Source: Prostheceraeus crozeri (lineage: Eukaryota; Platyhelminthes; Polycladida; Euryleptidae). Taken from it: a stretch of 64,000 bases of DNA. The notes under the pieces are model-generated. The model was not told the origin of the DNA and did no database searches. It was given only the letters and a program-made list of their open reading frames with translations. Location of the stretch: contig CAJQUW010011540.1 in assembly GCA_907163375.1 (NCBI GenBank), positions 1 to 64,000 on the forward strand. Direction: 5' to 3'. This document shows positions 13,322 through 35,490 of the stretch, piece after piece. How positions within the stretch are numbered: position 1 is the stretch's first letter; every line of letters begins with the position of its first letter. The position numbers were made by a program, and so were the translations under genes.

Positions 13322-13375
13322 AGTAGTAAGTAAAACTCCACTTCTGGACCGCGCAAGATGGCCGCCATCGAAGAA

Positions 13376-13560
13376 TTTTCGCTGACGTCCCCCCCTCTGG
13401 AACGACAGAGGTTGTGGTCTGTCGTGGTGTGCCGACCAGGTTGGTCCACGTTCACAAAATGTTCGCTGACGTCCCCCCCTCTGGAACGACAGAGGTTGTG
13501 GTCTGTCGTGGTGTGCCGACCAGGTTGGTCCACGTTCACAAAATGTTCGCTGACGTCCCC
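13376..13560. repeat. 84-bp tandem repeat, about 2.2 copies
   Basis: Two copies (about 13378-13461 and 13462-13545) and a partial third of a unit containing cgctgacgtccccccc, gtggtctgtcgtggtgtgcc and gaccaggttggtcc. The unit carries a C-run and a near-palindromic gaccaggttggtcc core. It is absent from the right arm, where the sequence jumps from gtaggca to gaaattcttcgatgg near 35430. Confidence 0.8.
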
Positions 13561-13789
13561 CCCCCCCCCTCGAAAACGACAGAGTGTGAGACTCGGGTGT
13601 GTTGGTCTCGTGTGGGTTGACGTAGCCGACCGCCTAGGTTGACGTGGGCGACCGTCTAGGTTGTCGTGGTGGAATGGTGAAACGGAATTTAGATTCGTGA
13701 TCAGCGTAAAATTCTGCATCGGTATGGTGAATTTGAGGTCAATCGGCGAGAAAAAATGTTTCTTCAAAATTTTGGCAGAGTTAAAATTT

Positions 13790-14780
13790 GGCACGTTTTG
13801 GTCTGTAGCGTCAAAGCGAAGCATCGCATAGGAAAACGGAGGCCAGATTCGGATTCAGCGTGAAATTCTGCATCGGTATGGTGAATTTGAACGCAATCGG
13901 AGAGAAAAAATTTTCGCTGACGTCCCCCCCCCTCGGGAGAGCTAGCTTCGATTTTGGCTTCCAGTGGACGGATTTTGTCGTGCCATAGCTCGTTTGAAAG
14001 CTAAGAGTGAGACAAATTCAGTGAAAGAATCGGCTTGTTCCTATCTGTCTTCGTTTAGACATGAGACGCCATTTAAGATTTTGGGACATTGGCGAAAAAC
14101 GACAGAGTTAGAATTTGGGACGTTTTGGGCTGTAGCTTCAAAACGAAGCATCGGATTGGAAAACGGATTTCAGATTTGGAATCAGCGTCAAATTCTCTAT
14201 CAGCATGGTGAGTTTCAAGTCAATCGGCGAGGAAAAAATTTTCAACATTTTTCGAAAAAATGACAGAGTTAGAATTTGGGACGTTTTGGTGTGTAGCGCC
14301 CAAACGAAGCATCGGATGAGAAAACGGAGGCCAGATTCGGATTCAGCGTGAAATTCTGCATCGGTATGGTGAGTTTGAACGCAATCGAAAAGAAAAAATT
14401 TTCGCTGACGTCCCCTCCCACTCGGCACCGACCTTCCAACTTTGCTTCTAGTGGACGGATTTTGTCGTGCCATAGCTCGTTTGAAAGCTAAGAGTGAGAC
14501 AAATTCACTGAAAGAATCGGCTAGTTCATATCTGTCTTCGTTTAGATGTGAGACGCCATTTAAGATTTTGGGACATTGGCGAAAAACGACAGAGTTAGAA
14601 TTTGGGACGTTTTGGGCTGTAGCTTCAAAACGAAGCATCGGATTGGAAAACGGATTTCAGATTTGGAATCAGCGTGAAATTCTCTATCTATATGGTGAGT
14701 TTCAAGTCAATCGGAGAGAAAAAATTTTTCATCACAAAATTTTTTCGAAAAAACGAGTTAGAATTTTTGCGAAGGCTGCC
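13790..14780. repeat. ~488-bp tandem repeat, two copies, left arm only
   Basis: Copies share gtggacggattttgtcgtgc (starts near 13964 and 14451), agacgccatttaagattttg and sub-repeats of aaacgaagcatcgga about every 170 bp. Open frames of 100-166 codons on both strands recur with the same period, so they are repeat-borne and not genes. The whole block is missing from the right arm. Confidence 0.75.
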
Positions 14781-16030
14781 TACTGTAGAGCCAAAACGAA
14801 GCATCGGATGGGAAAACGGAGGCCAGATTTGGATTCAGCGTCCAATTCTACATGGAAATGGTGTATTTCCAGCTCAATCGGGCCTCCAGAATCGATGATA
14901 GAAGCGTTTTAAGTTTTTGGATGATGGATATTACGTCATCAGCTGATCGCCACACACTATATAAGCTGGGAACCGAGAGAGATTTGTCATTAAGACGAGA
15001 GCGATTGTCAGAGGTAGGTCTTCTCTCTGAGCTCCGATGATAGCTTCGGACATTCCAAATTCCGGGTCTCTGTAAGAAACCGACTTAGAAAATTTCATTG
15101 CTGATATCAGCTAAGGCGTCAGACTTAGAGGTTAGCCAGGAGATGGCCTTCGTCTCCAGGCCATAAAAGACTCCAAAACTTTAAAGGCTTGTAAATTTGC
15201 TTCTACAAGTCCGTTTGACTTGATTCAAAACAGGTTCGGCCGCTATTGATCTGCCCTAAGTGATAGATTACTTATAAAATTTCATAAGTAGTGCTAAAAA
15301 GTTAAAAAATTTAAATTCACTAGTTTTGGAGGTTTTCTGGGGTTTTCGACCCTGCTGAAGTCAATGAAAGCATTTTTAATGATGTCTGAGCCAGTCTTCT
15401 CATGCTATAAGCGGCTTTTCACTGAAAGCGAGCATGACACGGAGAGTTTTGCTGTAATATTCCACTGACAGGGTGTTCCTTCGGGACGGCGGACGATGCC
15501 GTAGTGATAAGTGTGGCAAGGGAGTGTGTCATAGTTTAGACCGTAACCGCTGGGACAACTCATGTCTCATGTTGGGCATTTGACACAGTTCTCAACGTAG
15601 GACTTTGAACGCCAATCGGTTGAGTCTTAGCTATCTTGTCATGGGTGGCCTCTAAACATCTCCATTGCAAAACGCTTGTGAATCAAGCTCTCTACGGCTT
15701 GCTATCAAGCTGCTCAAAGTCTGTCAACCTCTTACCAACTCTACAGGTTTTCATGTCTGGCGAATACTATCATTAAGTTGAATCTGCTATCAGGCAACTT
15801 GAACGTTGCAAATGAAGTTCGGTGTAATACTTCCTTTCGACGGGCGTTCCTGTAAAGGGCGGCGGTGAAACCCGTAGCTATGTATACCGCAAGGGACATT
15901 CGGTAATGGTCAATCTTGTTAAACCTCTCTGCATCATGTTTGCAAGTGATTGCCTCTGTCTCAACGTAGTATGCATTCGCGCCAGGGCGACATTTAGCCA
16001 GCTGTCGAAGGTTGCCTTATAAACTATCCA
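14780..16030 (-). repeat. Terminal-region repeat units, left arm
   Basis: This is the reverse complement of 34190-35425 and of parts of 950-2130. It contains one type 1 and one type 2 unit, and the conserved ataagtagtgctaaaaagtt and gaggttttctggggtttt blocks. In the right arm the same units are present once, whereas the second Polinton at the window start has at least four type 1 units, so unit number varies between copies. Confidence 0.8.
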
Positions 16031-16057
16031 TTGCATACGTTATGAGAACCATGAGTT

Positions 16058-16255
16058 CTACCTGTCTCTATCAATGAGATGAATTGATGAATGGAATGAA
16101 ATGGGAGGACACTCACGCGCCACACGCAACATAACACACTTCTCTCTTCCGTAGTCTAACAAGCTCTTTACACATGGATCGCAGTCGATTGCTATCCCTG
16201 TATCAGAAGTGTAAGCTATCTTAATTTTATTTAACACTATTTCATCTACCATCAT
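16058..16255 (-). CDS. Conserved 65-codon ORF of the Polinton, left copy
   Basis: The predicted peptide starts MMVDEIVLNKIKIAYTSD and contains IDCDPCVKSLLDYGREKC, with four cysteines. It recognises no family I know. It is intact and identical to the right-arm copy, whereas the neighbouring small gene and polB carry lesions, which makes it worth listing. It lies outward of the small gene and on the same strand. A splice-donor-like GCGTGAGT occurs within it, so it could instead be the 5' exon of a longer transcript running into the terminal repeats. Confidence 0.3.
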   Translation of the reverse strand: MMVDEIVLNKIKIAYTSDTGIAIDCDPCVKSLLDYGREKCVMLRVARECPPISFHSSIHLIDRDR

Positions 16256-16402
16256 CACCCATATGAAATGTTATAAGATTTACAAGTTAAACTAAGCGTG
16301 CTACTATTTCCAAATGAACAAGTATACATGGTTAAATCATCCACTGAAGCCCCATTCAAGTAAGTCAGTATGAAAGCAAAGATAATACGAAATAAAAATT
16401 TA

Positions 16403-16856
16403 TTATGGCATGTATTTCAAAAGGTCTTCATCGTCAATATCGTCCCAGAGTCTGGCTTCACACAGATCACAAAACCAGTTCACTTGCTTCAATCGTTCTT
16501 CTACCGCGAGCCTCACTTTGTCGATGTACTCCCACTCCGCCGTAGTTCGTGGCTGGGAGTTAGGGGTGTACCATCCCATAATTGATGGAGGAATTTGGTG
16601 CTGGTGATCTCCATCACATCATCAGTATCGTACTGCAGATACTTCCATCGTATGCCTGTTAGGTCGGGACACTCCTTCTCACATACACTCTCCTCTTCGT
16701 CATCCGCTGGTAATGACAACTTTCTAATGTTGTCGAGTCGGTATAATTTCTCCACCTTCCCCTTCGTTGGAGCGTTTGGTGCAACGAGCGCCTTTGGCGA
16801 TGAGCATGGAGAAGAGAACTCCAATCTGTGTTCGATGTTTTTGGAGGGCTTGTCAT
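16403..16856 (-). pseudogene. Small outward gene of unknown function, left copy
   Basis: From the ATG at 16856 the coding signal runs through three successive frames: an N-terminal piece (MTSPPKTSNTDWSSLL), a long middle piece (KVEKLYRLDNIRKL, then the acidic DDEEESVCEKE) and a C-terminal piece (MAEWEYIDKVRL, then CFCDLCEARLWDDIDDED) ending TAA. An AATAAA overlaps the stop region. The total would be about 150 codons. The same frame breaks are in the right-arm copy. It is divergent from polB with about 290 bp between the starts, implying a shared promoter. No family recognised. The CFCDLC motif suggests a metal-binding tail. Confidence 0.45.
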
Positions 16857-17144
16857 GTTGACTGTGAATAATGACTTTGAAATGTTTTCTAATTCTTAAG
16901 TATAAACAAGCAACCAATCAGAATGAACAGCCAATGAATGATGAATATGAAAGTATATATGCAAAGTGACATTCGTGTCATTTCACTCTGTCTTTGAGAC
17001 GTATAAGTGAAGTGTTCTCTAGCGAATTCTATATTTGAGGCGTACAAGTGAACTGCTCTCTCGTGAATTCCAAATTTGAGACGTATTATTTGAGTGAAGT
17101 CTCTATCTTGTTGAAGTATCAACCTTAAACTTGATTTCGTTGAA
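16857..17144. promoter_or_regulatory. Divergent intergenic region between polB and the small gene, left arm
   Basis: The gap between the two divergent starts is about 290 bp and highly conserved between arms. It contains three loose repeats of a phrase like gagacgtata/gaggcgtacaagtgaa, spaced about 60 bp apart (near 16996, 17037 and 17078), and a tatatatgcaaag stretch. These are candidate promoter elements. No experimental or motif-level confirmation is possible here. Confidence 0.35.
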
Positions 17145-20100
17145 ATGGTAAGTTGAAAATTTCTTCACTCATCTCCCTCAAACGTGTGGCTAATAGCATC
17201 TTCCTCAATTTCAGGCATCAACTTCATCACCAACGCCGCCCTCCCTTCTCGAGGAAAGTTTAGAGTTGTTGAGTCAAAGTAGGTTGTAACAATACACTGA
17301 GACTTAAACAGAGATGACAGAATGATTTCTCTTTCAGGTGATGTGAGTTCCAGCTCAGGACTCTCGCGACAAGGCAACGAGTGGGAATGTGCCGACTGCG
17401 GACATATGTTTACAAGGAAGCACAGTCTCCTTCGACACATCAAACAACGTGTGTGTCAACGCAAAGCGGCATCAATCTCCGGAGGTGAAGTTGATTCTGA
17501 CGATGACATCTCCTTTCCTTGCGATTTGTGCCCTCTTTCTTTTGATAGTCACTTTCAGCGATCTTCGCACAGACTTCAACACACGCATGCAAATGATCAC
17601 TACACCAACGGTACCTCTACCATCTCCCTCATTAATGTTTCACATAATAATTTAGTACGCGACTACTGCATGGAGTCCAATACTCAAATAGTAGATTTTC
17701 CTGAGTGGCTCCTTCAAAATTCTAACATTATCGAAGCGCTCTTCAACAATTTAGACAATTTTAGAATGAAGGCGCTCATCTACCTTAAACTAAAATATAT
17801 TAAAATAGATTTTCAAACGGGTCAAGTGACGGAGAGAATACAGTTTCATGTTCCTTCCTCTTCCGCAACCGAAGTTGTAGACTGCGAGTCTTGGCTAAAT
17901 TTTCACATTCAATGTTTAAAATCAAATGTAGATAAATTCAATCAACGCGACAGCGCTCTCATTTTTGATGGTGTGGACTCAGCCATATTCAAAATTTCCC
18001 TATTAGAAAGTCATGCAACTCAAGGCACATTTAAACTACCAAAAACGTTGTATAATAAGAAAGCTGTCATCAATGTCGATTGTAAATCACAGTGTTTCAA
18101 ATATGCAGTCCTATCCATCCTTCACTATAATGATATCAACGCGCATCGAGATCGCACCTATAGCTATAGACAGTGGGAGGATGAACTAGACTTTGAAGGT
18201 TGTGATAGTGACAACATGAAAATCAAAGATGTAGAAACGTTCGAAAAACATAATAAGATTAAAATTGTCGTTCACGTGTGGGAGAAGGGGTTGAAGGGTG
18301 CCCGCTATAATTCACGTTCAATTTGTTATGAACGTGTAGTCAACCTCTTATTAGTAAAACAAGATGATAGCGAGGAATGGCACTACTGTGGTATTCCCAA
18401 AATCTCTCGCTTGTACACTCACTTGGGGCACTCTAAAAGAGGTGAACATTTTGTATGCGGCCGCTGCATCCGCTCCTTTTGGAGTAAAGATAAATTTGAA
18501 ACTCACTATGAATGGTGCAAGCGAGGTAAATTACAAATGGAACGCATGCCCAAAGATAAAATATTTTCACATAGGGATAATGGTGACGAATTAAGTCCCC
18601 TGCGTATCATTTACGCAGACATAGAATGCTACATTGATGATATCATCCACAAACCAGCAGCCATATCCTGCTATGAAGTATGGCATGACCACTTTAGGAA
18701 TAGACAAAACAAAATGCATACTTGGCAAGGTGAAGATTGTATTTCAAAATTTCTAGAATTTCTCGATAAAGCTGCTAAATTTCAACAATAATATGATTCA
18801 CAATTGCAGCGTAAGTCACTACATATGTCAGATGAAGACAAACAGAAATTTGAAAGTTGCACATCGTGCCCTAAATGTCATAAAACGTTTGATGACGATA
18901 AAATTAAGAAAGTGCGTGATCATGATCACATCACTGGTAAATTTAGAAACGCACTCTGCTCCAAATGTAACTTTTCACTTAGGTTGAGACGTCGTGTACT
19001 ACCCGTCATTTTTCATAACTTTAAGGGCTATGACAGTCATATGCTCATAAAAGGAGGGTTGAGCCAGATGAAATCGTGGCAGTTCAATGTTATAGCACAA
19101 ACGAGAGAAAAATTCATGGCAATGACAGCAAAAGTACCAGTAGATAAAACTAAAGAAAATAAGACGGTCTTCTTCGAAATAAAATTTTTAGATTCATTTC
19201 AATTCATGTCAGCGTCACTAGCTTCTCTCGTTCGAAATCTCAAGTTTCTTCCCCATAGTCAAACTTTGAAGAAACACTATCCAAACTTAACGGATGACAT
19301 GATCACTCGCAAAGGAGTCTTTCCCTATGCGGATTTTAGCTCAATGTCTAAACTAAATGAAACAACCCTTCCTTCCATTGACAAATTCAAAAACGATTTG
19401 ACGGGTGAAGATTGTCCAGTAGAGGACTATGAACATGCTCAAGAGGCATGGTTAAAATTTAATTGTAAAACGTTTGGCGATTATATGATCGCTTACTTAG
19501 AATTAGATGTCATTTTGCTGGCTGATGTCTTTCAGGAATTTCGACGAGTGGCATTAGAAGAAGACAAATTAGATCCTATCCACTTTGTCAGTCTACCAGC
19601 CATGTCCTTTAAATCAGCCTTTAAAATGACTGGTGAGACCATTCATCTCTTACAAGACCCGGAGATGTATAATATATTTGAGCGCGGAATACGCGGTGGT
19701 CTCACATTTGTAAATAAACATCATATAAAATCTAAAACAGTAGGTGATGATCATATCCACCTAAAGTACTATGACCAAAATAATTTATATGGCAGTTCAC
19801 TGTCTAAACCACTACCTCATTCCGAGTTTAGTTGGTTAAAACAAGATGAGCTTGAGTATTACTCCAACCCTTCAAACATACTGAAGATTCCAGATGAAGG
19901 TGATTGGGGATATTATTTTGAAGTGGATTTGATTTATCCAAATAGTATTAAAAATAAAACTGCTGATTTCCCACTCGCACCTGAATCTGGTGAAGTGACT
20001 GAAGATATGTTTTCACCATTCATGTCACAATTTCATAATAATTTAACAGAGTGTGGACAGCCAAGGTACAAACCATGCCGCAAACTTTTACTCACCCAAT

Positions 20101-21062
20101 ATGATAAGAAAAATTATCTCGTACACTTCTGCATACTAAAATTCTATTTAGAAATGGGCATGCTTCTAAAGTCAGTTCACCGCATTATCAAATTTAGACA
20201 GAAAGCCTTCCTCAAACCCTACATAGATAGTAATAGTCAAAAACGTGCACTAGCCCAAAATAATTTTGAAAAAGATTTTTATAAATATAAGAATAATAGT
20301 CTTTTCGGAAAGACCATGGAGGATGTTAGAAAACGCATAAACTACAAACTAGTCACTGATGATCAAAAATATCACAAATTGACCTCATCACCTCTTTTCA
20401 TTGATAGAGACATTATCGATGAGGATCTTGTAGGTGTTAAAATGATAAAATCTGAAGTTGAGTTGTGCAAGCCCATCTATATTGGCCAAGCTGTACTAGA
20501 TTACTCTAAGCTTGAAATGTACCAACTCTTTTATAAAATACTAAAACCATGTCCTCTCGTAAAAGAGGGTCGTTTGTTGGGTGGTGATACAGATAGTTTC
20601 TTCTTAGGTATTACCACTCAAAAAGATTTAAATTTTAATGAAGTAGCTAAGTCATTAGAAAAATATTTCGACACATCTAACTACAATCCCGCTCATCCAC
20701 TCTTTTCCATACAGAATAAAGCCAAACTTGGTTGTTTTAAGGATGAAACAGCAGGAAAGGAAATAGATGAAATGATTCTCCTCCGCCCTAAAATGTATTC
20801 CATGAAATTAAAAGAATGTGCAGATAGTATTAAGCGTGCTAAAGGAATATCAAAATCAATTGTCCAAAAAATGAAACATCGGTCCTATAAGAAGGCCTAT
20901 AAAAATAAAAATATAACGTTTGTCAATATGACAATCTTAAAATCACAAGTTCATACTGTGAAAACGTACACATTTAAGAAACGAGCGCTTTCTGCATGGG
21001 AGGATAAGAGGTGTTGGATAGGACATAACACATCTCTTCCACATGGACATAAGATAAGATAA
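17145..21062 (+). pseudogene. polB: Polinton type-B DNA polymerase, left copy (one internal stop; 3' end cut by a LINE)
   Basis: Protein-primed replicative polymerase. I propose a spliced 5' end: ATG at 17145, intron 17148-17214 (GTAAGT...TTTCAG), exon 17215-17278, intron 17279-17337 (GTAGGT...TTTCAG), then one long frame. The N-terminal part has two C2H2-type fingers (CADCG...H, CDLCP...H), then the family's middle region and a CGRCIRSF finger. Exonuclease motifs are YADIEC, FKGYDSH and YLELD; polymerase motifs are YDQNNLYGSS (A), NNSLFGKT (B), GGDTDSFF (C) and RPKMYSM. A TAA at 18789-18791 splits the frame and the right arm shares it; downstream sequence stays in frame. A LINE replaces the last residues after SLPHGH. 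Catalytic residues look intact. Confidence 0.85.
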
Positions 21063-24000
21063 GATAATAATCTTTATTGCCTCACAAGTGTACAACATTC
21101 GGTGAGCGCATGACAAAAATTTACAAGGAAGATTACTCGAAAAAATACAAGAAAAATGCAAAGTACAGTGACGAAGTATTACAGAAGATCAACGACTAAA
21201 AAAAAAGAAAAAAACAGGTTCGAAACTATATACAATATCTGATAAAAGAAGAAGTAAAACGTTTGGTCCTTCCAAAAGGACGACGAAAAATGCGAGAACT
21301 GCGGGTTGCACGGACGGATTCACACGCTTGGAACATCTCCCGCAAAGGATTATCCTGGTTTCTGAAAATGTCACGAAAAAGTTTCTCGCATGTTCTGTCT
21401 GCCACACAAAATAAAGAGTTGGATGCGTCATAAGGAATGTCTACGAGACGATAAACACGTCGTTCAATACTTTGCAATCGCTGTTTCAAGTACTCAGGGA
21501 TATTACAAAATGATGGGTACGCGTATAACATAACAGATCGAATAAAGGCAACATAGCATTTTATGATAAGATCTTTTTGACAGTTTGACCTGCGGAGATT
21601 ATGGACGATGTACATGCGCTTGCATACCTTTTTGATCAAATAATCAATATGAGTATTCCACTTTAGATCTTTGGAAAAATGCACACCCAAAAATTTGAAA
21701 CAATCAACTTGAGACAAAAACAATCCATCATCAACTAAAATTGACTCAACCAACAGGTTTGACTTGGTGACAACATTAAGGACATGGCACTTAGAAATAT
21801 TTTTGGGTAAATACACAGATTGGGACCAACTGACAAAGTTGTCCCATTCTTTCTGCAAATTGTCTTCGTCTGAGTCACGTATACAATGGATAAAAAGTAT
21901 ATCATCGGCATACTTTATAATTTTTGTATTCACACATACAGGAGAAATACTGTCTGTAGCTAAGGCAAACAACAAAGGCCCAACTATGCTACCCTGTGGA
22001 ATGCCACTTGGGACATTTGACCACTTAGAAAAACATCCATTTAAATGAACACGTTGACCTCTGTCTGACAAAATGTTCGAAATCCACTTTATCACTGGAA
22101 TTGGAATATCGAATTTACGACAATTTTCAATTATGACATTATGAGGTAATTTCTCAAAAGCTTTACATAAATCCACCGAAAGCAATCTAACACAACCAGA
22201 ACTCAAATCTAAAAATTTCAGAATATGGTGTTGGGTCAACACAAGAGCGGAAGTTGTACCTGATCCACTACGTAGAATGAAAGCAAACTGAGATTTATGG
22301 AGTTTATTTGCCACATAGAGAAGTATAAGGTGTTTACATACAACGCGCTCCAAAACGTTAGAAAGAATAGGCAAAAGGGAAATTGGCCTAAATTCAGAAA
22401 TAATTTTAGGCCTATCACATTTCGGTATAGGAATAACATTTGCCAGCTTAAGACATTCAGGCATAATTCCAATTTGCAAACTCCAATTCACCAGGTAAGT
22501 GATGACAGGAGACAAAAAATCTGCGAAACGTCTAAAAATCCATGCTGGTAAGTTGTCCGGACCACATCCAGCATTCTTCAAATTGAGAAGAACCCGGCAC
22601 ACATCATCACAGTCTATCATAGAGATAGACTGATTACACAAGAGATTATCTTGATCTGAAGAAGCACTATCTTGATCAACAATTTGAAAATTCGACGAGA
22701 AAAAGTCACAAAATTCGTCTGCAGAGAACTTTGTGGAAGCAGATGGGCGAGTACACTCGCAGCTTGACGCAAAGAGCTCCACACTTTCTTTATGTTATTG
22801 GAAGACACAGCATTTGAAATAAAAGAACTCTTAAGTTCTTTAATGTGCTTGCTTACTTCAAATTTCAAGCGATTGTATTTTGACCATTGTCCAGTAGAAT
22901 ACGCATGATCTCTTTCATTAATCAGAATTCGTAGCGAATCCTTCAACCATTCCGGGTCTCCAGATCGAACCCGAATAGTTCTCATGGGAAAGCAATCATC
23001 ATATAATGAGTAAAGATACTTTAAGAGATTGTACATCGCATCCTCTAAGTTATTGCATGCTTCAATAACAGACATCCAGTCAATGCATGTAATAAAGTCA
23101 GCAAATCGTGCAAAATTACACTTAGAGAATTTTCTAACCTTTTTCTTCATAACTGTAGCCGCCACGACATCATCAGGTTTCCAATGTATAACACAATGGT
23201 CAGATTTATGAATGGGTGGAAGACATGCAGGTTTGATATCGATGAAGAAATTAACAAACATCTGGTCAAGGATATTTTCTCCTCTAGTCGGAAATGTAAC
23301 CAATGATTTCAGCGTAGTCACATCACTGATGGTGCCATAGTATTCACGTAAGTCGTTGAAATCTCCCAACAGACAGACGCGTAATTTTGATCCATACTTG
23401 ACAAACATATAATCCAATATATCAGTCAAACAAGTCAAAGCATTCTCATGAGCCGGGCGATTGTTCCAATAAGGGTGATAAACCATTATAAGTGACAGGT
23501 ACGATTCCTTAATGAATAATACAAGAAATTCAGTGGCAAAATCATCCTGCGAAATAATGGAATCATGATTAACCACAGATGTGGTTAAAGAGTTCCTCAC
23601 ATAACACAAAATGCCACCACCAGAACCACTCGTTCTGTCCCTGCGAAAGATAGAATAATTGTCCACAGAAATAGATGAATCCGGGGTATTAGAATCCAGC
23701 CAAGACTCTGTCATCACAAAGACATCAGGAATGAGTCGAGTAATTAACAATTTGAATTCATCAAATTTGTTGTTGATGGATCTCACATTAGTCAAGGTAA
23801 TGCTTGGGTTTCGAAGGCGACGTGATCGGCGACCATGAGGAACAATTGGCACCGATATGAGGAATCTGCTCTTCTGACGAGTTGACGAGTCACTGTCGTT
23901 ACCAAGAAGGCCACGGTCAGGTCTGATAACTGTTTGGATGTGTTGCACATATATTTTGTGATAAAACAAACGTCGACGAACTACTCGAGGAATACAAACA

Positions 24001-24178
24001 CATGGGCGTTGGCGTAACAGTAAAAGATCTTCTTTCGAATAGCGATAAATACCTCCACTCATTGTACAGCAAAGACAGAGACACAGCCAGCAACGACCAA
24101 GAGCAGAATTCACAGCAGCGGTCGCAAGCTATCCGACCACTCGACGCGAAGATCGATGATCGAAATCTTGATACAATC
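21051..24178 (-). mobile_element. Non-LTR retrotransposon (CR1/L2-like) inserted in the left polB
   Basis: The element is absent from the mirror position in the right arm, so its limits are read directly: host sequence stops after acatggacat and resumes at tgatacaaac. It lies on the minus strand. Its 3' end is an aataaag signal followed by (ttatc)n repeats, a microsatellite tail as in CR1/L2-type elements. No clear target-site duplication is visible; only tgatacaa is repeated just inside the 5' junction. It postdates palindrome formation. Confidence 0.88.
21226..24113 (-). pseudogene. LINE ORF2: APE endonuclease and reverse transcriptase
   Basis: The upstream frame (22617-24113) holds an apurinic-type endonuclease: NVRSINNK, TESWLD, GGGILCYVR, LLGDFND and the terminal SDHCVI. 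The downstream frame (21226-22782) holds the reverse transcriptase: FRPISLLPILSNVLERV, the D-containing SVDLCKAFE, GIPQGSIVGPLLF, the catalytic IIKYADD, and LGVHFSKDLKWNTHI. The two frames overlap, so a frameshift near 22.79 kb breaks the protein. FAFILRSGSGTTSA replaces the usual FGFR motif. No separate ORF1 is seen. The N-terminus RYSKEDLLLLR is typical of L2/CR1-type ORFs in invertebrates. Confidence 0.82.
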
Positions 24179-24717: not shown

Positions 24718-24759
24718 GATGAAGATTTAAACAGTTAGATTCGATGACGAACAAGATTT

Positions 24760-26850
24760 ACTAGTTTGCAAGTTAAACTAAGCGTTCTATTATTTGTAAA
24801 TGAAAGATATAGTTTCAACAGTTTACAGATTAAAAATAAAGTTTCAATAGTGTATGTGTTAGAAATAAAGTTTAAGCTGTTTGTATGTTAGAAATAAAAT
24901 AAAGTTTCAAGAGTTTACAAGTTAAAAATAAAGTTTCAACAGTGTGTACGTTAGAAATAAAGTTTTATCTGTTTGTAAAATGAGATTGTAGGATTTACTA
25001 GTTTGCAAGTTAGACTAAGCGTTCTACTATTTGTAAATGAAAGATATAGTTTCAACAGTTTACAGATTACAAAATAAAGTTTCAATAGTGTTTATGTTAA
25101 AAATAAAGTTTAAGCTGTTTGTGTGTTAGAAATAGAATAAAGTTTCAACAGTTTGTCGATTAAAAATAAAGTTTCAACAGTGTGTACGTTAGAAATAAAG
25201 TTTCATCTGTTTGTAAAATGAGATTGTAGGATTTACTAGTTTGCAAGTTAGACTAAGCGTTCTACTATTTGTAAACGAAAGATATAGTTTCAACAGTTTA
25301 CAGATTAAAAATAAAGTTTCAACAGTGTGTACGTTAGAAATAAAGTTTTAGGCGTTTGTGCGTTAGAAATAAAATAAAGTTTCAAACGTTTACAAGTTAA
25401 AAATGAAGTTTCAATAGTGTGTATGTTAAGAATAAAGTTCTATCTGTTTATCTGTTAGAAATAAAACTGAAGGTTCACCAGTTTACAAGTTAAGAATAAA
25501 GTTTTATCTGCTTGTATGTCAGAATGAAATAAAGTTTCACCAGCTTAAAAGTTAAAAATAAAGTTTCAATAATGTGTACGTTAGAAACAAAGTTTCAATA
25601 GTTTACAAGTTAAGAATAAAGTTTCAATAGTGTGTATGTTAGAAATAAAGTTCTATCTGTTTATATGTTAGAAATAAAATGAAGTTTCACCAGTTTACAA
25701 GTTAAGAATAAATTTTATCTGCTTGTATGTTAGAAATGAAATAAAGTTTCACCAGTTTACAAGTTAAAAATAAAGTTTCAATAGTGTGTATGTTAAGAAT
25801 AAAGTTCTATCTGTTTGTATGTTAGAAATAAAATGAAGTTTCATCAGTTTACAAGTTAAGAATGAAGTTTTATCTGTTTGTATGTTAGAAATAAAACAAA
25901 GTTTCAACCGTTAACAAGTTAAAAATAAAGTTTCAATAGTTTGCAAGTTAAAACTAATGTTTCAATAGTGCGTATGTTAAGAATAAGGTTTTATCTGTTT
26001 GTATGTTAGAAATAGAATGAAGCTTCACCAGTTTACAAGTTAAGAATAAAATTTTATCAGCTTGTATGTTAGAAATATAATGAAGTTTCAACAGTTTACA
26101 AATTAAAAATAAAGTTTCAATAGTGTGTACGTTAGAAATAAAGTTTCAACCGTTTACAAGTTAAAAATAAAGTTTCAACAGTGTCTACGTTAGAAATAAA
26201 GTTTTATCTGTTTGTAAAGTACGATCGTAGGATTTACTAGTTTGCAAGTTAGACTCAGCATTCTACTAGTTGTAAATGAAAAATATCGTTTCAACAGTTT
26301 ACAGATTAAAATAAAGTTTCAATAGTGTGTATGATTGAAATAAAGTTTAAGCGCTTTGTGCGTTAGAAATAAAGTTTCAGCCGTTTACAAGTTAAAAATA
26401 AAGTTTCAACAGTGTGTACGTTAGAAATAAAGTTTTAGCTGTTTATATGTTAGAAACAAAGTAAAGTTTCAACAGTTTACAAGTTGAAAAATAAAGTTTC
26501 AACAGTGTGTACGTTAGAAATAAATGAAAGTAAGAACTTCATCGTATGAGTATTCAAAGCATGTTTTGTAAATCAAATGTGTGTAGTCCTGACATGATAG
26601 AATCGCGTTAGAAATAAAGTTTCAGCCGTTTACAAGTTAAAAATAGAGTTTGAACAGTGTGTACGTTAGAAATAAAGTTTTAGCTGTTTATATGCTAGAA
26701 ACAAAATAAAGTTTCAACAGTTTACAAGTTGAAAAATAAAGTTTCAACAGTGTGTACGTTAGAAATAAATGAAAGTAAGAACTTCATCGTATAAGTATTC
26801 AAAGCATGTTTTGTAAATCAAATGTGTGTAGTCCTGACATGATAGAATCA
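24760..26850. repeat. AATAAAG-rich minisatellite, left arm
   Basis: Irregular units of about 35-45 bp alternate acaagttaaaaataaagttt, gtgtacgttagaaataaagt and atctgtttgtatgttagaaa. Higher-order blocks of about 240 bp start with ttactagtttgcaagttaga (near 24760, 25000, 25235 and 26235). Two copies of a 245-bp block with gaaagtaagaacttcatcgt and gtcctgacatgatagaat lie at about 26518-26605 and 26763-26850. Almost every unit carries aataaag. ORFs across it are repeat-borne. Confidence 0.85.
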
Positions 26851-26852
26851 AG

Positions 26853-26874
26853 CTTGACAAACGCGTTTGTCAAG
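26853..26874. repeat. Centre of the Polinton palindrome
   Basis: A perfect 22-bp palindrome with acgcgt at its middle joins the two arms at 26863/26864. Immediately outside it the arms differ by a few bases (aag on the left; the complement of ttcattt on the right), after which they pair again for kilobases. There is no unpaired spacer, as expected for a turn-around junction from copying one strand back on itself. Confidence 0.85.
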
Positions 26875-26879
26875 TTCAT

Positions 26880-28590
26880 TTGATTCTATCATGTCAGGAC
26901 TACACACATTTGATTTACAAAACATGCTTTGAATACTTATACGATGAAGTTCTTACTTTCATTTATTTCTAACGTACACACTGTTGAAACTTTATTTTTC
27001 AACTTGTAAACTGTTGAAACTTTATTTTGTTTCTAACATATAAACAGCTAAAACTTTATTTCTAACGTACAGACTGTTCAAACTCTATTTTTAACTTGTA
27101 AACGGCTGAAACTTTATTTCTAACGCGATTCTATCATGTCAGGACTACACACATTTGATTTACAAAACATGCTTTGAATACTCATACGATGAAGTTCTTA
27201 CTTTCATTTATTTCTAACGTACACACTGTTGAAACTTTATTTTTCAACTTGTAAACTGTTGAAACTTTATTTTGTTTCTAACATATAAACAGCTAAAACT
27301 TTATTTCTAACGTACACACTGTTGAAACTTTATTTTTAACTTGTAAACGGCTGAAACTTTATTTCTAACGCACAAAGCGCTTAAACTTTATTTCCATCAT
27401 ACACACTATTGAAACTTTATTTTAATCTGTAAACTGTTGAAACGATATTTTTCATTTACAACTAGTAGAATGCTGAGTCTAACTTGCAAACTAGTAAATC
27501 CTACGATCGTACTTTACAAACAGATAAAACTTTATTTCTAACGTAGACACTGTTGAAACTTTATTTTTAACTTGTAAACGGTTGAAACTTTATTTCTAAC
27601 GTACACACTATTGAAACTTTATTTTTAATTTGTAAACTGTTGAAACTTCATTATATTTCTAACATACAAGCTGATAAAATTTTATTCTTAACTTGTAAAC
27701 TGGTGAAGCTTCATTCTATTTCTAACATACAAACAGATAAAACCTTATTCTTAACATATGCACTATTGAAACATTAGTTTTAACTTGCAAACTATTGAAA
27801 CTTTATTTTTAACTTGTTAACGGTTGAAACTTTGTTTTATTTCTAACATACAAACAGATAAAACTTCATTCTTAACTTGTAAACTGATGAAACTTCATTT
27901 TATTTCTAACATACAAACAGATAGAACTTTATTCTTAACATACACACTATTGAAACTTTATTTTTAACTTGTAAACTGGTGAAACTTTATTTTATTTCTA
28001 ACATACAAGCAGATAAAATTTATTCTTAACTTGTAAACTGGTGAAACTTCATTTTATTTCTAACATATAAACAGATAGAACTTTATTTCTAACATACACA
28101 CTATTGAAACTTTATTCTTAACTTGTAAACTATTGAAACTTTGTTTCTAACGTACACATTATTGAAACTTTATTTTTAACTTTTAATCTGGTGAAACTTT
28201 ATTTTATTTCTAACGCACAAACGCCTAAAAACTTTATTTCTAACGTACACACTGTTGAAACTTCATTTTTAATCTGTAAACTGTTGAAACTATATCTTTC
28301 ATTTACAAATAGTAGAACGCTTAGTCTAACTTGCAAACTAGTAAATCCTACAATCTCATTTTACAAACAGATGAAACTTTATTTCTGACGTACACACTGT
28401 TGAAACTTTATTTTTAACTTGTAAACTCTTGAAACTTTATTTTATTTCTAACATACAAACAGCTTAAACTTTATTTCTAACACATACACTATTGAAACTT
28501 TATTTTTAATCTGTAAACTGTTGAAACTATATCTTTCATTTACAAATAATAGAACGCTTAGTTTAACTTGCAAACTAGTAAATCTTGTTC
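26880..28590. repeat. AATAAAG-rich minisatellite, right arm
   Basis: This is the reverse complement of the left-arm minisatellite, with units read as gaaactttatttctaacgta and similar. It has one fewer 240-bp block than the left arm. The two inner 245-bp blocks lie at about 26876-26965 and 27127-27212. Confidence 0.85.
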
Positions 28591-28621
28591 GTCATCGAAT
28601 CTAACTGTTTAAATCTTCATC

Positions 28622-28910
28622 ATGGAAATCAATGTTCCACAGTCATTTGAAAAAGATATGATCGCCCCAAAGTGATTTGATTCTACCTATTTCTGTTGGT
28701 GAGAAAAAAGAATACATTTTACGTGATTTCATTCATGATAAAGACGCTTCATATGGAATAGTCGAGATGTTTGAATCTATTTTCTATCACCCCGTCGTCA
28801 AACAAACTATACCCTCTATTTCTATCAAAATTACCAATGGTTTACAAGAGTGCATCCATGTGAAAGATACTAAATCCCTCGTAACTTTAGTGTTTCGGAA
28901 AACAAAGTGA
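28622..28910 (+). pseudogene. 3' end of a truncated Polinton gene, right copy
   Basis: The translated product is identical to the left-arm copy, with the same frame break between the leader opened by the ATG at 28622 (MEINVPQSFEKDMIAPK) and the main frame from 28677. The stop is followed by aataaag at about 28933. It converges on polB, leaving about 180 bp between stops. The 5' remainder is replaced by minisatellite. Confidence 0.45.
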
Positions 28911-29089: not shown

Positions 29090-32000
29090 TTATGTCAATA
29101 CATCTCCTGAATGTGGTAGCGTGAGTTTTATTCTTTTGGGTGGAGGTATGTTTGTATCATGATGTCCATGTGGAAGAGATGTGTTATGTCCTATCCAACA
29201 CCTCTTATCCTCCCATGCAGAAAGCGCTCGTTTCTTAAATGTGTACGTTTTCACAGTATGAACTTGTGATTTTAAGATTGTCATATTGACAAACGTTATA
29301 TTTTTATTTTTATAGGCCTTCTTATAGGACCGATGTTTCATTTTTTGGACAATTGATTTTGATATTCCTTTAGCACGCTTAATACTATCTGCACATTCTT
29401 TTAATTTCATGGAATACATTTTAGGGCGGAGGAGAATCATTTCATCTATTTCCTTTCCTGCTGTTTCATCCTTAAAACCACCAAGTTTGGCTTTATTCTG
29501 TATGGAAAAGAGTGGATGAGCGGGATTGTAGTTAGATGTGTCGAAATATTTTTCTTATGACTTAGCTACTTCATTAAAATTTAAATCTTTTTGAGTGGTA
29601 ATACCTAAGAAGAAACTATCTGTATCACCACCCAACAAACGACCCTCTTTTACGAGAGGACATGGTTTTAGTATTTTATAAAAGAGTTGGTACATTTCAA
29701 GCTTAGAGTAATCTAGTACAGCTTGGCCAATATAGATGGGCTTGCACAACTCAACTTCAGATTTTATCATTTTAACACCTACAAGATCCTCATCGATAAT
29801 GTCTCTATCAATGAAAAGAGGTGATGAGGTCAATTTGTGATATTTTTGATCATCAGTGACTAGTTTGTAGTTTATGCGTTTTCTAACATCCTCCATGGTC
29901 TTTCCGAAAAGACTATTATTCCTATATTTATAAAAATCTTTTTCAAAATTATTTTGGGCTAGTGCACGTTTTTGACTATTACTATCTATGTATGGTTTGA
30001 GGAAGGCTTTCTGTCTAAATTTGATAATGCGGTGAACTGACTTTAGAAGCATGCCCATTTCTAAATAGAATTTTAGTATGCAGAAGTGTACGAGATAATT
30101 TTTCTTATCATATTGGGTGAGTAAAAGTTTGCGGCATGGTTTGTACCTTGGCTGTCCACACTCTGTTAAGTTATTATGAAATTGTGACATGAATGGTGAA
30201 AACATATCTTCAGTCACTTCACCAGATTCAGGTGCGAGTGGGAAATCAGCAGTTTTATTTTTAATACTATTTGGATAAATCAAATCCACTTCAAAATAAT
30301 ATCCCCAATCACCTTCATCTGGAATCTTCAGTATGTTTGAAGGGTTGGAGTAATACTCAAGCTCATCTTGTTTTAACCAACTAAACTCGGAATGAGGTAG
30401 TGGTTTAGACAGTGAACTGCCATATAAATTATTTTGGTCATAGTACTTTAGGTGGATATGATCATCACCTACTGTTTTAGATTTTATATGATGTTTATTT
30501 ACAAATGTGAGACCACCGCGTATTCCGCGCTCAAATATATTATACATCTCCGGGTCTTGTAAGAGATGAATGGTCTCACCAGTCATTTTAAAGGCTGATT
30601 TAAAGGACATGGCTGGTAGACTGACAAAGTGGATAGGATCTAATTTGTCTTCTTCTAATGCCACTCGTCGAACTTCCTGAAAGACATCAGCCAGCAAAAT
30701 GACATCTAATTCTAAGTAAGCGATCATATAATCGCCAAACGTTTTACAATTAAATTTTAACCATGCCTCTTGAGCATGTTCATAGTCCTCTACTGGACAA
30801 TCTTCACCCGTCAAATCGTTTTTGAATTTGTCAATGGAAGGAAGGGTTGTTTCATTTAGTTTAGACATTGAGCTAAAATACGCATAGGGAAAGACTCCTT
30901 TGCGAGTGATCATGTCATCCGTTAAGTTTGGATAGTGTTTCTTCAAAGTTTGACTATGCGGAAGAAACTTGAGATTTCGAACGAGAGAAGCTAGTGACGC
31001 TGACATGAATTGAAATGAATCTAAAAATTTTATTTCGAAGAAGACTGTCTTATTTTCTTTAGTTTTATCTACTGGTACTTTTGCTGTCATTGCCATGAAT
31101 TTTTCTCTCGTTTGTGCTATAACATTGAACTGCCACGATTTCATCTGGCTCAACCCTCCTTTTATGAGCATATGACTGTCATAGCCCTTAAAGTTATGAA
31201 AAATGACGGGTAGTACACGACGTCTCAACCTAAGTGAAAAGTTACATTTGGAGCAGAGTGCGTTTCTAAATTTACCAGTGATGTGATCATGATCACGCAC
31301 TTTCTTAATTTTATCGTCATCAAACGTTTTATGACATTTAGGGCACGATGTGCAACTTTCAAATTTCTGTTTGTCTTCATCTGACATATGTAGTGACTTA
31401 CGCTGCAATTGTGAATCATATTATTGTTGAAATTTAGCAGCTTTATCGAGAAATTCTAGAAATTTTGAAATACAATCTTCACCTTGCCAAGTATGCATTT
31501 TGTTTTGTCTATTCCTAAAGTGGTCATGCCATACTTCATAGCAGGATATGGCTGCTGGTTTGTGGATGATATCATCAATGTAGCATTCTATGTCTGCGTA
31601 AATGATACGCAGGGGACTTAATTCGTCACCATTATCCCTATGTGAAAATATTTTATCTTTGGGCATGCGTTCCATTTGTAATTTACCTCGCTTGCACCAT
31701 TCATAGTGAGTTTCAAATTTATCTTTACTCCAAAAGGAGCGGATGCAGCGGCCGCATACAAAATGTTCACCTCTTTTAGAGTGCCCCAAGTGAGTGTACA
31801 AGCGAGAGATTTTGGGAATACCACAGTAGTGCCATTCCTCGCTATCATCTTGTTTTACTAATAAGAGGTTGACTACACGTTCATAACAAATTGAACGTGA
31901 ATTATAGCGGGCACCCTTCAACCCCTTCTCCCACACGTGAACGACAATTTTAATCTTATTATGTTTTTCGAACGTTTCTACATCTTTGATTTTCATGTTG

Positions 32001-33064
32001 TCACTATCACAACCTTCAAAGTCTAGTTCATCCTCCCACTGTCTATAGCTATAGGTGCGATCTCGATGCGCGTTGATATCATTATAGTGAAGGATGGATA
32101 GGACTGCATATTTGAAACACTGTGATTTACAATCGACATTGATGACAGCTTTCTTATTATACAACGTTTTTGGTAGTTTAAATGTGCCTCGAGTTGCATG
32201 ACTTTCTAATAGGGAAATTTTGAATATGGCTGAGTCCACACCATCAAAAATGAGAGCGCTGTCGCGTTGATTGAATTTATCTACATTTGATTTTAAACAT
32301 TGAATGTGAAAATTTAGCCAAGACTCGCAGTCTACAACTTCGGTTGCGGAAGAGGAAGGAACATGAAACTGTATTCTCTCCGTCACTTGACCCGTTTGAA
32401 AATCTATTTTAATATATTTTAGTTTAAGGTAGATGAGCGCCTTCATTCTAAAATTGTCTAAATTGTTGAAGAGCGCTTCGATAATGTTAGAATTTTGAGG
32501 GAGCCACTCAGGAAAATCTACTGTTTGAGTATTGGACTCCATGCAGTAGTCGCGTACTAAATTATTATGTGAAACATTAATGAGGGAGATGGTAGAGGTA
32601 CCGTTGGTGTAGTGATCATTTGCATGCGTGTGTTGAAGTCTGTGCGAAGATCGCTGAAAGTGACTATCAAAAGAAAGAGGGCACAAATCGCAAGGAAAGG
32701 AGATGTCATCGTCAGAATCAACTTCACCTCCGGAGATTGATGCCGCTTTGCGTTGACACACACGTTGTTTGATGTGTCGAAGGAGACTGTGCTTCCTTGT
32801 AAACATATGTCCGCAGTCGGCACATTCCCACTCGTTGCCTTGTCGCGAGAGTCCTGAGCTGGAACTCACATCACCTGAAAGAGAAATCATTCTGTCATCT
32901 CTGTTTAAGTCTCAGTGTATTGTTACAACCTACTTTGACTCAACAACTCTAAACTTTCCTCGAGCAGGGAGGGCGTTGGTGATGAAGTTGATGCCTGAAA
33001 TTGAGGAAGATGCTATTAGCCACACGTTTGAGGGAGATGAGTGAAGAAATTTTCAACTTACCAT
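29090..33064 (-). pseudogene. polB: Polinton type-B DNA polymerase, right copy (two internal stops; native C-terminus)
   Basis: Mirror copy of the left polB. Proposed exons are 33062-33064, 32934-32994 and 32874 downward; introns are 67 and 59 bp, as in the left arm. The middle exon is 3 bp shorter than on the left, in frame, with one synonymous change beside it. The TAA shared with the left arm lies at 31421-31423. A second TAA, at 29555-29557, is private to this arm (a single T-to-A change relative to the left). The frame resumes and shows the true C-terminus, ending SGDVLT, which the LINE removed on the left. Other private changes include D to Y in the FPYAD motif, F to V, K to R before motif B and C to G after motif C. 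Confidence 0.85.
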
Positions 33065-33352
33065 TTCAACGAAATCAAGTTTAAGGTTGATACTTCAACA
33101 AGATAGAGACTTCACTCAAATAATACGTCTCAAATTTGGAATTCACGAGAGAGCAGTTCACTTGTACGCCTCAAATATAGAATTCGCTAGAGAACACTTC
33201 ACTTATACGTCTCAAAGACAGAGTGAAATGACACGAATGTCACTTTGCATATATACTTTCATATTTATCATTCATTGGCTGTTCATTCTGATTGGTTGCT
33301 TGTTTATACTTAAGAATTAGAAAACATTTCAAAGTCATTATTCACAGTCAAC
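33065..33352. promoter_or_regulatory. Divergent intergenic region between polB and the small gene, right arm
   Basis: Mirror of 16857-17144, with the same three spaced repeats (aatacgtctcaaatttgga-like) and the tttgcatatatacttt stretch. It is presumed to hold back-to-back promoters. Confidence 0.35.
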
Positions 33353-33806
33353 ATGACAAGCCCTCCAAAAACATCGAACACAGATTGGAGTTCTCTTCTC
33401 CATGCTCATCGCCAAAGGCGCTCGTTGCACCAAACGCTCCAACGAAGGGGAAGGTGGAGAAATTATACCGACTCGACAACATTAGAAAGTTGTCATTACC
33501 AGCGGATGACGAAGAGGAGAGTGTATGTGAGAAGGAGTGTCCCGACCTAACAGGCATACGATGGAAGTATCTGCAGTACGATACTGATGATGTGATGGAG
33601 ATCACCAGCACCAAATTCCTCCATCAATTATGGGATGGTACACCCCTAACTCCCAGCCACGAACTATGGCGGAGTGGGAGTACATCGACAAAGTGAGGCT
33701 CGCGGTAGAAGAACGATTGAAGCAAGTGAACTGTTTTTGTGATCTGTGTGAAGCCAGACTCTGGGACGATATTGACGATGAAGACCTTTTGAAATACATG
33801 CCATAA
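33353..33806 (+). pseudogene. Small outward gene of unknown function, right copy
   Basis: Same organisation as the left copy: ATG at 33353 in one frame, the central acidic segment in the next and MAEWEYIDKVRL to the TAA at 33804 in the third, with aataaa overlapping the stop. The R to W change in SHELRR/SHELWR is one of very few arm differences. Because both arms share both frame breaks, either they predate the palindrome or the gene is expressed through unrecognised introns. Confidence 0.45.
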
Positions 33807-33953
33807 TAAATTTTTATTTCGTATTATCTTTGCTTTCATACTGACTTACTTGAATGGGGCTTCAGTGGATGATTTAACCATGTATACTTGTTCATTTGGA
33901 AATAGTAGCACGCTTAGTTTAACTTGTAAATCTTATAACATTTCATATGGGTG

Positions 33954-34151
33954 ATGATGGTAGATGAAATAGTGTTAAATAAAATTAAGATAGCTTACAC
34001 TTCTGATACAGGGATAGCAATCGACTGCGATCCATGTGTAAAGAGCTTGTTAGACTACGGAAGAGAGAAGTGTGTTATGTTGCGTGTGGCGCGTGAGTGT
34101 CCTCCCATTTCATTCCATTCATCAATTCATCTCATTGATAGAGACAGGTAG
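33954..34151 (+). CDS. Conserved 65-codon ORF of the Polinton, right copy
   Basis: Identical in translation to the left copy at 16058-16255. The ATG at 33954 is the first in frame. It has no recognised domain and four cysteines. It sits between the small gene and the terminal repeats. Confidence 0.3.
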   Translation: MMVDEIVLNKIKIAYTSDTGIAIDCDPCVKSLLDYGREKCVMLRVARECPPISFHSSIHLIDRDR

Positions 34152-34189
34152 AACTCATGGTTCTCATAACGTATGCAATGGATAGTTTA

Positions 34190-35425
34190 TAAGGCAACCT
34201 TCGACAGCTGGCTAAATGTCGCCCTGGCGCGAATGCATACTACGTTGAGACAGAGGCAATCACTTGCAAACATGATGCAGAGAGGTTTAACAAGATTGAC
34301 CATTACCGAATGTCCCTTGCGGTATACATAGCTACGGGTTTCACCGCCGCCCTTTACAGGAACGCCCGTCGAAAGGAAGTATTACACCGAACTTCATTTG
34401 CAACGTTCAAGTTGCCTGATAGCAGATTCAACTTAATGATAGTATTCGCCAGACATGAAAACCTGTAGAGTTGGTAAGAGGTTGACAGACTTTGAGCAGC
34501 TTGATAGCAAGCCGTAGAGAGCTTGATTCACAAGCGTTTTGCAATGGAGATGTTTAGAGGCCACCCATGACAAGATAGCTAAGACTCAACCGATTGGCGT
34601 TCAAAGTCCTACGTTGAGAACTGTGTCAAATGCCCAACATGAGACATGAGTTGTCCCAGCGGTTACGGTCTAAACTATGACACACTCCCTTGCCACACTT
34701 ATCACTACGGCATCGTCCGCCGTCCCGAAGGAACACCCTGTCAGTGGAATATTACAGCAAAACTCTCCGTGTCATGCTCGCTTTCAGTGAAAAGCCGCTT
34801 ATAGCATGAGAAGACTGGCTCAGACATCATTAAAAATGCTTTCATTGACTTCAGCAGGGTCGAAAACCCCAGAAAACCTCCAAAACTAGTGAATTTAAAT
34901 TTTTTAACTTTTTAGCACTACTTATGAAATTTTATAAGTAATCTATCACTTAGGGCAGATCAATAGCGGCCGAACCTTTTTTGAATCAAGTCAAACGGAC
35001 TTGTAGAAGCAAATTTACAAGCCTTTAAAGTTTTGGAGTCTTTTATGGCCTGGAGACGAAGGCCATCTCCTGGCTAACCTCTAAGTCTGACGCCTTAGCT
35101 GATATCAGCAATGAAATTTTCTAAGTCGGTTTCTTACAGAGACCCGGAATTTGGAATGTCCGAAGCTATCATCGGAGCTCAGAGAGAAGACCTACCTCTG
35201 ACAATCGCTCTCGTCTTAATGACAAATCTCTCTCGGTTCCCAGCTTATATAGTGTGTGGCGATCAGCTGATGACGTAATATCCATCATCCAAAAACTTAA
35301 AACGCTTCTATCATCGATTCTGGAGGTCCGATTGAGCTGGAAATACACCATTTCAATGTAGAATTGGACGCTGAATCCAAATCTGGCCTCCGTTTTCCCA
35401 TCCGATGCTTCGTTTTGGCTCTACA
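34190..35425 (+). repeat. Terminal-region repeat units, right arm
   Basis: One type 2 unit (about 34190-34500), one type 1 unit (about 34520-34830) and the conserved aaacctccaaaactagtgaa to gatgacgtaatatccatcat segment mirror the left arm and match 950-2130. After about 35430 the sequence jumps directly to the outermost 55 bp, so the C-tract minisatellite of the left arm is missing. Confidence 0.8.
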
Positions 35426-35490
35426 GTAGGCAGAAATTCTTCGATGGCGGCCATCTTGCGCGGTCCAGAAGTGGAGTTTTACTTACTACT

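Follow-up and report, generated by a model that had tools for sequence, protein, structure and literature searches.

A Polinton-derived giant palindrome in Prostheceraeus crozeri and its sister palindromes in the same genome

The window element and its closest known systems

Adenoviruses, linear plasmids and other replicons with protein-primed synthesis give rise to snap-back defective genomes, which carry one of their ends twice, as inverted copies on either side of a fold-back point. For Polintons (Mavericks), protein-primed replication has to our knowledge never been directly observed. Long near-perfect palindromes are usually unstable and are regarded as accidents. Here we describe a Polinton-derived giant palindrome of about 22 kb in the polyclad Prostheceraeus crozeri. 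It occupies positions 13322–35490 of a 64,000-nucleotide stretch of contig CAJQUW010011540.1 (assembly GCA_907163375.1), called the window below, and was compared with its relatives in the same assembly (2.05 Gb, 14,165 contigs), in which the family searches described below were made. We consider the window element to be one member of a transposing Polinton family whose heritable form is a giant palindrome, present in hundreds of copies, probably multiplied through a hairpin cycle and probably integrated by an integrase acting in trans; the probability of this reading is about 0.72. A first-pass annotation of the window had described the element as a single snap-back defective Polinton.

The element is similar to Polintons in its 6-bp target-site duplication, its terminal inverted repeats of the short tandem AGT type (both ends have AGTAGT) and its PolB gene. 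PMC8097293 gives a length of 12.7–24.6 kb for intact vertebrate Polintons, a range that includes the window element, inverted repeats of 46–1,447 bp and a terminal AGT/AG repeat motif. Here, in contrast, the inverted repeat makes up nearly half of the element. Pfam was applied to 14 of the 41 open reading frames (ORFs) of at least 80 aa that overlap the element, two of the 14 belonging to an inserted non-long-terminal-repeat (non-LTR) retrotransposon (LINE). With no rve integrase, protease, ATPase or complete capsid gene among these 14, the window element is a Polinton-derived palindrome and not a complete Polinton. Its structural features are the following.

13316–13321, no strand: left target-site duplication CATACA
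13322–13378, plus strand: left outermost terminal repeat, 57 bp, starting with AGTAGT, identical in both arms
13379–14775, plus strand: subterminal tandem repeats with 84-bp and 487-bp units, in the left arm of the window only
14776–21050, plus strand: left arm, shared part, 99.65% identical to 29162–35433
24672–26852, plus strand: left central module, 83 bp common to other cargo types and then an AT-rich tandem array (29/58/92/245-bp units)
26853–26874, no strand: axis, a 22-bp perfect palindrome with the halves CTTGACAAACG and CGTTTGTCAAG, found family-wide
26875–26879, minus strand: conserved asymmetry, TTCAT here versus a single base on the other side, in 9 of 9 aligned elements
26875–28667, minus strand: right central module, content as on the left, array shorter
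29162–35433, minus strand: right arm, shared part
35434–35490, minus strand: right outermost terminal repeat, 57 bp
35491–35496, no strand: right target-site duplication CATACA

The identical CATACA hexamers that had been noted beside the inverted AGTAGTAAG termini are indeed present at 13316–13321 and 35491–35496. CATACA occurs 27 times on the plus strand of the 64 kb, and the chance match of a given 6-mer is about 4e-4. AGTAGTAAG is found once in the window, at 13322, and its complement likewise once, at 35482–35490. A joining of two unrelated Polinton ends was also considered and is ruled out by the matching duplication. The arms meet without a spacer at the 22-bp perfect palindrome, the longest of the region, as the annotation had stated; to this we add a 4-nt asymmetry located 11 bp from the axis. 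The 64 nt about the axis are predicted to form a hairpin that has a 4-nt bulge beside a 10-bp tip stem (z −10.45). The outermost 57 bp are identical between the arms, the shared parts have 19 mismatches over 6,275 columns (99.65% identity), and nearer the axis two stretches of 1,325 bp and 889 bp have 7 and 4 mismatches. The inverted repeat had been described as effectively the whole element; the arms are, however, unequal: 1,397 bp of subterminal repeats, a LINE of about 3.1 kb and longer central arrays are found on the left, and the right arm has neither the subterminal repeats nor the LINE. Only the polB half is present, twice, as was claimed, except that each arm also keeps an 82-aa remnant of the neighbouring gene.

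As in snap-back genomes, two mirrored copies of one end stand about a fold-back point in the window, and by this analogy a snap-back event is a plausible origin of the first palindrome. The family described here is different in being inherited and integrated, in occurring at hundreds of places with one common axis and in not being a dead end. Foldback (FB) transposons have very long inverted repeats with tandem arrays and are able to form hairpins. Long array-containing inverted repeats are common to both, whereas the window element is repeat almost throughout and has ends of Polinton type; we know of no FB transposon with PolB or Polinton ends. Parvoviruses, poxviruses and N15-type phages have hairpin or covalently closed ends, and replication through terminal hairpins regenerates palindromic DNA. 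The hairpin proposed here would differ in being at one end only, the other end presumably being of the protein-primed type. Teratorn, as described in PMC6431247, differs in being of piggyBac/herpesvirus type, with a unique region between its repeats. A palindromic Polinton was not found in the titles and abstract beginnings of the searched literature, which held few subscription papers.

Sister palindromes, their axis and their arms

Copies of the subterminal region with 91–95% identity (38 of 5,488 candidates scored; the candidate numbers of our genome searches are rough and are not copy counts) form inverted pairs on seven other contigs, with the subterminal repeat region at both ends. Five of these pairs (C6533, C14055, C6234, C4016 and C1113) are palindromic well past the terminal region. 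Four more palindromes come from further loci (C11544, C7408, C2694 and C1818); C1818 and C2694, as well as C3017, were taken from the list of axis-pattern places and not from the 40 best axis matches, both given below. Together with the window, ten palindromes were read on both arms, at least in large part (all but the inner 20 kb in C4016). One side beside the axis is deleted in C6234, the right arm of C7408 has an additional rearrangement and the C3017 contig terminates 110 bp beyond the axis.

Eight palindromes, including the window, have both ends seen, and the duplication is exact in seven of them; C7408, with one end seen, and C2694, with none, are outside this count. The exact private hexamers are CATACA in the window, AATGAA in C1113, TTTATG in C14055, AGCGTT in C6234, ACACTG in C4016, CTCGGA in C11544 and ATTATC in C1818, where the left end motif has one change. 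In C6533 the match is 5/6. The duplications of C4016, C11544, C1818 and the ordinary Polinton C9127 were read by eye from the flanks. The annotation had proposed to look for sister Polintons and for palindromic copies with their own duplications, and the assembly contains both: the ordinary C9127 and nine other palindromes, seven of them with both ends seen. Integration of a Polinton derivative as a palindromic unit is thereby supported. It was too strong to conclude from the 6-bp duplication alone that later duplication is excluded, since the ends are homologous and a fold-back copy made in situ could run out at the far terminus with the duplication kept; it is the sister copies that settle this question. 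An empty allele with one CATACA was searched for in the assembly with the joined flanks of the window element and was not found; the only matches were to the flanks of this element itself and to a 39-bp repeat next to the right flank. As a separate observation, the C14055 palindrome (C14055:495,000–512,000) is inserted in the PolB gene of another family member, with PolB sequence on both flanks.

The axis is common to the family. With a 411-bp axis probe, the best 40 of 1,394 candidates were scored and all of them are 98–100% identical. A 42-nt axis pattern that includes the asymmetry is found at 548 places (267 + 281) with at most 3 mismatches, the reversed pattern at none (0 + 0); about a dozen of the 548 places were examined with longer flanks. 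Nine elements were aligned outward from the axis over 330 bases (C3017 over only about 87 on one side). Their 22 bp are identical apart from one-sided point changes, and within the 330 columns a consistent difference between the sides is found only at columns 12–16 (TTCAT versus one base), in 9/9 elements. Two elements have in common a change on one side, 8 nt away from the axis, and a third element differs at the same base. Element-specific changes farther from the axis occur on both sides, the nearest about 35 nt away (C2694), so the asymmetry is kept only at the tip. Some axis copies lie within about 90–340 bp of a contig end (C3017, C3867:343 and C4155:91), and hence the assembly seems to break at some palindromes.

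The presence of the same axis and asymmetry at 548 places, together with seven other palindromes that have duplications of their own (six exact, one 5/6), means that the window copy descends from palindromes. A single snap-back at the root of the window copy, as first proposed, does not agree with this. The palindrome thus had one origin, or very few, and has since multiplied in palindromic form.

Within elements the arms are sisters. When PolB DNA of four palindromes is placed in a tree, each element's two arms group together in 4/4 cases (support 0.987–0.998). Of the biallelic PolB sites, 85 are shared by both arms of a single element (53, 12, 11 and 9), 67 are single-arm and 3 join whole elements. 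Over a 562-bp stretch compared in nine elements, the arms differ by 0–0.71% from each other and by at least 0.93% from any other element (9/9). The least diverged copies have arm identities of 99.56% over 9,987 columns (C11544) and 99.52% over 10,002 columns (C2694), and array lengths by arm, calculated from coordinates, of about 1,896/1,894 and 3,675/3,644 bp in these two. Array lengths vary between elements and are unequal between the arms in the window, C6533, C7408 and C1818.

After integration the arms of the window have decayed independently: the left arm has gained a LINE, and the right arm has lost 1.4 kb by deletion and has a private stop. The differences between the arms form no tracts (P 0.29). 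Of the one-arm amino-acid differences, four could be compared with relatives, and all four are at positions that do not vary among the 39 relatives counted (another three are outside the span of relative P0001). Those differences from P0001 that both arms have are at variable positions; eight consecutive apparent differences of this kind (L1 376–383) are a misalignment against P0001 and were excluded. This indicates that the window arms were still alike when the element inserted, each having decayed on its own since then.

PolB substitutions common to both arms are 41 synonymous, 42 non-synonymous and 2 stops, with a neutral expectation of 0.232 synonymous (p 4.6e-7). Along the longest branch between palindromes, purifying selection acted on PolB. 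One-arm substitutions are 29 synonymous, 35 non-synonymous and 3 stops; without the left arm of C7408, 12/45 are synonymous (p 0.60). The word defective is therefore right for the window copy, whose PolB is broken, but not for PolB along that branch.

The make-up of an arm can be seen by comparison with C9127, the one ordinary Polinton sister that was read, examined in four separate stretches. DNA homology between the right arm of the window and C9127 stops at 28668. When the 13 C9127 ORFs are compared with the window element, the sole match is the final 81 residues of a capsid-like ORF (97.5%, once per arm); this PolB-facing gene terminates in the same residues that remain in the window. The central array is absent from the four C9127 stretches except for 40–47-bp matches, one of which is between the module start and the opposite end of C9127. 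From the remnant, the homology stop and the absence of the array it follows that the window arm is a Polinton end cut in the capsid-like gene and joined to a module of 83 bp, array and axis. Palindromes with other cargo (C6234, C1113 and C4016) have the 83-bp stretch and array as in the window, together with a gene that C9127 carries at its opposite end, and the axis was observed in C6234 and C1113. A conserved ORF of 174–182 aa without a Pfam match (L018:6927–7472, L014:5702–6247 and L020:2650–3171) is mirrored in the other-cargo palindromes and single in C9127; the resemblance of its start to a DnaQ-type exonuclease motif is an impression only.

A possible hairpin cycle and competing explanations

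We propose that a Polinton-type end may once have folded back on an axis bearing the AT-rich array and the 22-bp palindrome. Judging from what is known of Polintons, protein-primed synthesis from the AGT-repeat end would displace a single strand. This self-complementary strand would form a hairpin, closed by a tight loop at the axis and bearing the terminus at its other end, and mismatches between the paired arms could then be repaired. Copying through the hairpin would regenerate a near-perfect palindrome, which would be integrated in trans by the integrase of ordinary Polintons, with a private 6-bp duplication each time. A palindrome that is displaced single-stranded must fold on itself; sister arms, arrays matched at insertion and the disappearance, everywhere but at the tip, of differences confined to one side are therefore expected. 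Sister arms, matched arrays and tip-only asymmetry are observed, and in the predicted fold the asymmetry site is the bulge of the folded strand. Integrase supplied in trans had been suggested before and is probably correct, because integrase-bearing ordinary Polintons share the genome; the integrase pieces of C9127 have no match in the window or in the fetched parts of nine sister palindromes.

If this is true, the working genome may be of half length, with a protein-primed terminus and a covalent hairpin, the chromosomal palindrome being its dimer, and it may live as a satellite on Polinton integrase, some members having their own PolB; we would give this extension even odds. Apart from this extension, the family is a selfish element that has a palindrome of about 20 kb as its inherited form and has spread in it to hundreds of places. 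It also offers a natural experiment on eukaryotic protein-primed replication, in which the divergence of the arms dates insertions, the axis records escape in the loop and integrase-bearing sisters are present in the same genome. Our results suggest a satellite/helper system among virus-like transposons.

Several points do not fit easily with this. Two of the seven inverted end pairs were not shown to be palindromic, as C9127 is ordinary and C8311 is undecided (ends about 39 kb apart, duplication 5/6, not counted as a palindrome). A symmetric A–A version of the axis is found at 14 places, which indicates that the tip is sometimes homogenised. At twelve PolB sites one arm of an element sides with another element and not with its partner arm, the largest such pattern (4 sites) placing both C6533 arms with the right arm of C7408. 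The left arm of C7408 is odd in having 17 of its 22 one-arm changes synonymous (L030:3755–7498). These two observations point to exchange between copies, and the private synonymous changes of the C7408 left arm suggest exchange with another copy. The selection signal comes mostly from the C6533 branch (31/53 synonymous); outside it 10/32 shared changes are synonymous, with no departure from neutrality (p 0.30), and the window and C7408 each carry a stop common to both arms. In the one assembly analysed we saw neither a hairpin nor an extrachromosomal form, a terminal protein or RNA, and sister arms could likewise come from arm-to-arm conversion in the chromosome.

This last process is the basis of the main rival explanation, in which elements integrate as palindromes and their arms are kept alike mainly by chromosomal gene conversion, as known between palindrome arms of mammalian Y chromosomes. 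Such conversion accounts for sister arms in 9/9 elements, for the shared stops and for the 12 arm-splitting PolB sites. We nevertheless think it unlikely: the one-arm changes of the window form no tracts, its LINE, 1.4-kb deletion and private stop remain unconverted, and changes present on both sides reach to about 35 nt from the axis in C2694, where the turn would be tighter than double-stranded DNA is likely to make. Somewhat more doubtful still is recurrent snap-back, the model of the annotation in repeated form: a non-palindromic Polinton would give rise to each palindrome separately at a fold-back hot spot, and integration would follow. The near-identical arms of C11544 and C2694 agree with it, and a broken PolB would be no obstacle, but a fresh fold-back should give a symmetric axis, which is seen at 14 places against 548 with the asymmetry. 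De novo formation, with each copy having its own breakpoint, is not what we find: the 22 bp and the asymmetry are alike in the nine aligned axes, the module is common to palindromes with different cargo, and the array is absent from the C9127 stretches apart from the short matches.

Two further explanations have very little probability. The axis could be a small independent palindromic transposon or satellite within unrelated elements, as the 40 scored axis matches are 98–100% identical over 411 bp, above many arm segments; that list is biased to high identity, and the axis copies seen with longer flanks, about a dozen of the 548, all centre mirrored arms, have mirrored arms with one side deleted (C6234) or lie at a contig end. 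An assembly artefact from fold-back reads or collapsed repeats is, to us, the least credible. Several axis copies do lie at contig ends (C3017, C3867 and C4155), where assembly is hard; on the other hand, the two flanks of the window element differ and were found nowhere else, the arms have mutations and insertions of their own, and exact duplications at different targets are present in seven palindromes. The reading we prefer remains a family that multiplies as palindromes, probably through hairpins.

Genes of the element and ordinary Polintons

The genes and gene pieces of the window element are as follows.

17301–18791, plus strand: PolB N-terminal open piece, left arm, with a C2H2 zinc finger just below the Pfam cut-off; ends at the stop common to both arms
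18792–21062, plus strand: PolB C-terminal open piece, left arm, with an endonuclease VII-like domain; the last residues run into the LINE
21051–24175, minus strand: non-LTR retrotransposon (LINE; endonuclease and reverse transcriptase), left arm only, limits approximate; the right-arm site is uninterrupted
24429–24677, minus strand: 82-aa remnant, the 3′ end of the capsid-like gene facing PolB in the ordinary sister, left arm
28662–28910, plus strand: 82-aa remnant, right arm
29090–29554, minus strand: PolB last open piece, right arm
29555–31420, minus strand: PolB middle open piece, right arm, ending at the stop private to the right arm
31421–32911, minus strand: PolB N-terminal open piece, right arm

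The window PolB is thus broken by a stop that both arms have and by another that only the right arm has; a relative with 98% protein identity has no stop at the shared position. The C-terminal piece of the left arm contains YYDQNNLYG, KNNSLFGK and GGDTDSFF, which we take to be PolB-type motifs. The 120 listed relatives of this PolB homologue are 52–98% identical to it, many with PF02945 and some with PF03175. The pieces had no match to the Pfam PolB model, and a PHROGs search gave endonuclease VII plus weak matches only. PolB searches of phage records, of PDB sequences and, by protein and by alignment, of viral contigs gave no result; genome contigs gave one short distant locus, which was not used.

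C9127 has the exact duplication GCTGCG. Its ends have AGTAGTAAG and, inward from about base 30, the same sequence as the window, about 18 bases between being different. The subterminal and mid regions, the single PolB (81% identical to that of the window) and the PolB-facing gene (95.6%) are in common, and on this sequence comparison the window element is of common descent with the ordinary Polintons of its genome. The integrase of C9127 (rve and chromo) is in two overlapping open pieces. A protease-like ORF matches Peptidase_C48 below the cut-off (1.3e-3) and Peptidase_C5 (0.045), another ORF has a possible but weak P-loop, and the capsid-like ORFs are named by position and appearance, with no Pfam capsid match. 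C9127 also has a Gypsy-type ORF inside it and a TBP-like ORF (PF00352, E 1.2e-20; L034:637–1338, minus strand) between the protease-like and capsid-like ORFs.

The first 27 nt of the terminal repeat are found genome-wide at 5,326 places (2,748 + 2,578) with at most 1 mismatch, and a control at 0. Among 100 listed exact ends there are 34 adjacent +/− pairs (median 23.5 kb), which may include both palindromic and ordinary elements; the other end neighbours within 45 kb are 3 −/+, 2 +/+ and 1 −/−. For PolB, the best 40 of 2,994 candidates scored are 99–100% identical; 22 of these 40 form 11 convergent same-contig pairs, none are divergent and 18 are single in the list. For integrase, the best 40 of 2,071 candidates scored are 98–100% identical, which means at least 40 near-identical copies; among them one pair is convergent within 10 kb (C4044) and one is divergent, 33 kb apart (C5407). 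A separate integrase copy (C91) is enclosed by an exact end pair of the window type. The two facing integrase copies at C4044:53290–62847, 7.2 kb apart, are possibly an integrase-half palindrome, and an exact Polinton end pair just 1.4 kb apart (C106:39668–41115) may be a miniature element.

Elsewhere in the window there are two further LINE-type stretches with endonuclease and reverse transcriptase ORFs, at 37562–41030 and 51755–54067, and a piece of a Tc1/mariner-like transposase at 43890–44540 (HTH_Tnp_Tc3_2, below the cut-off).

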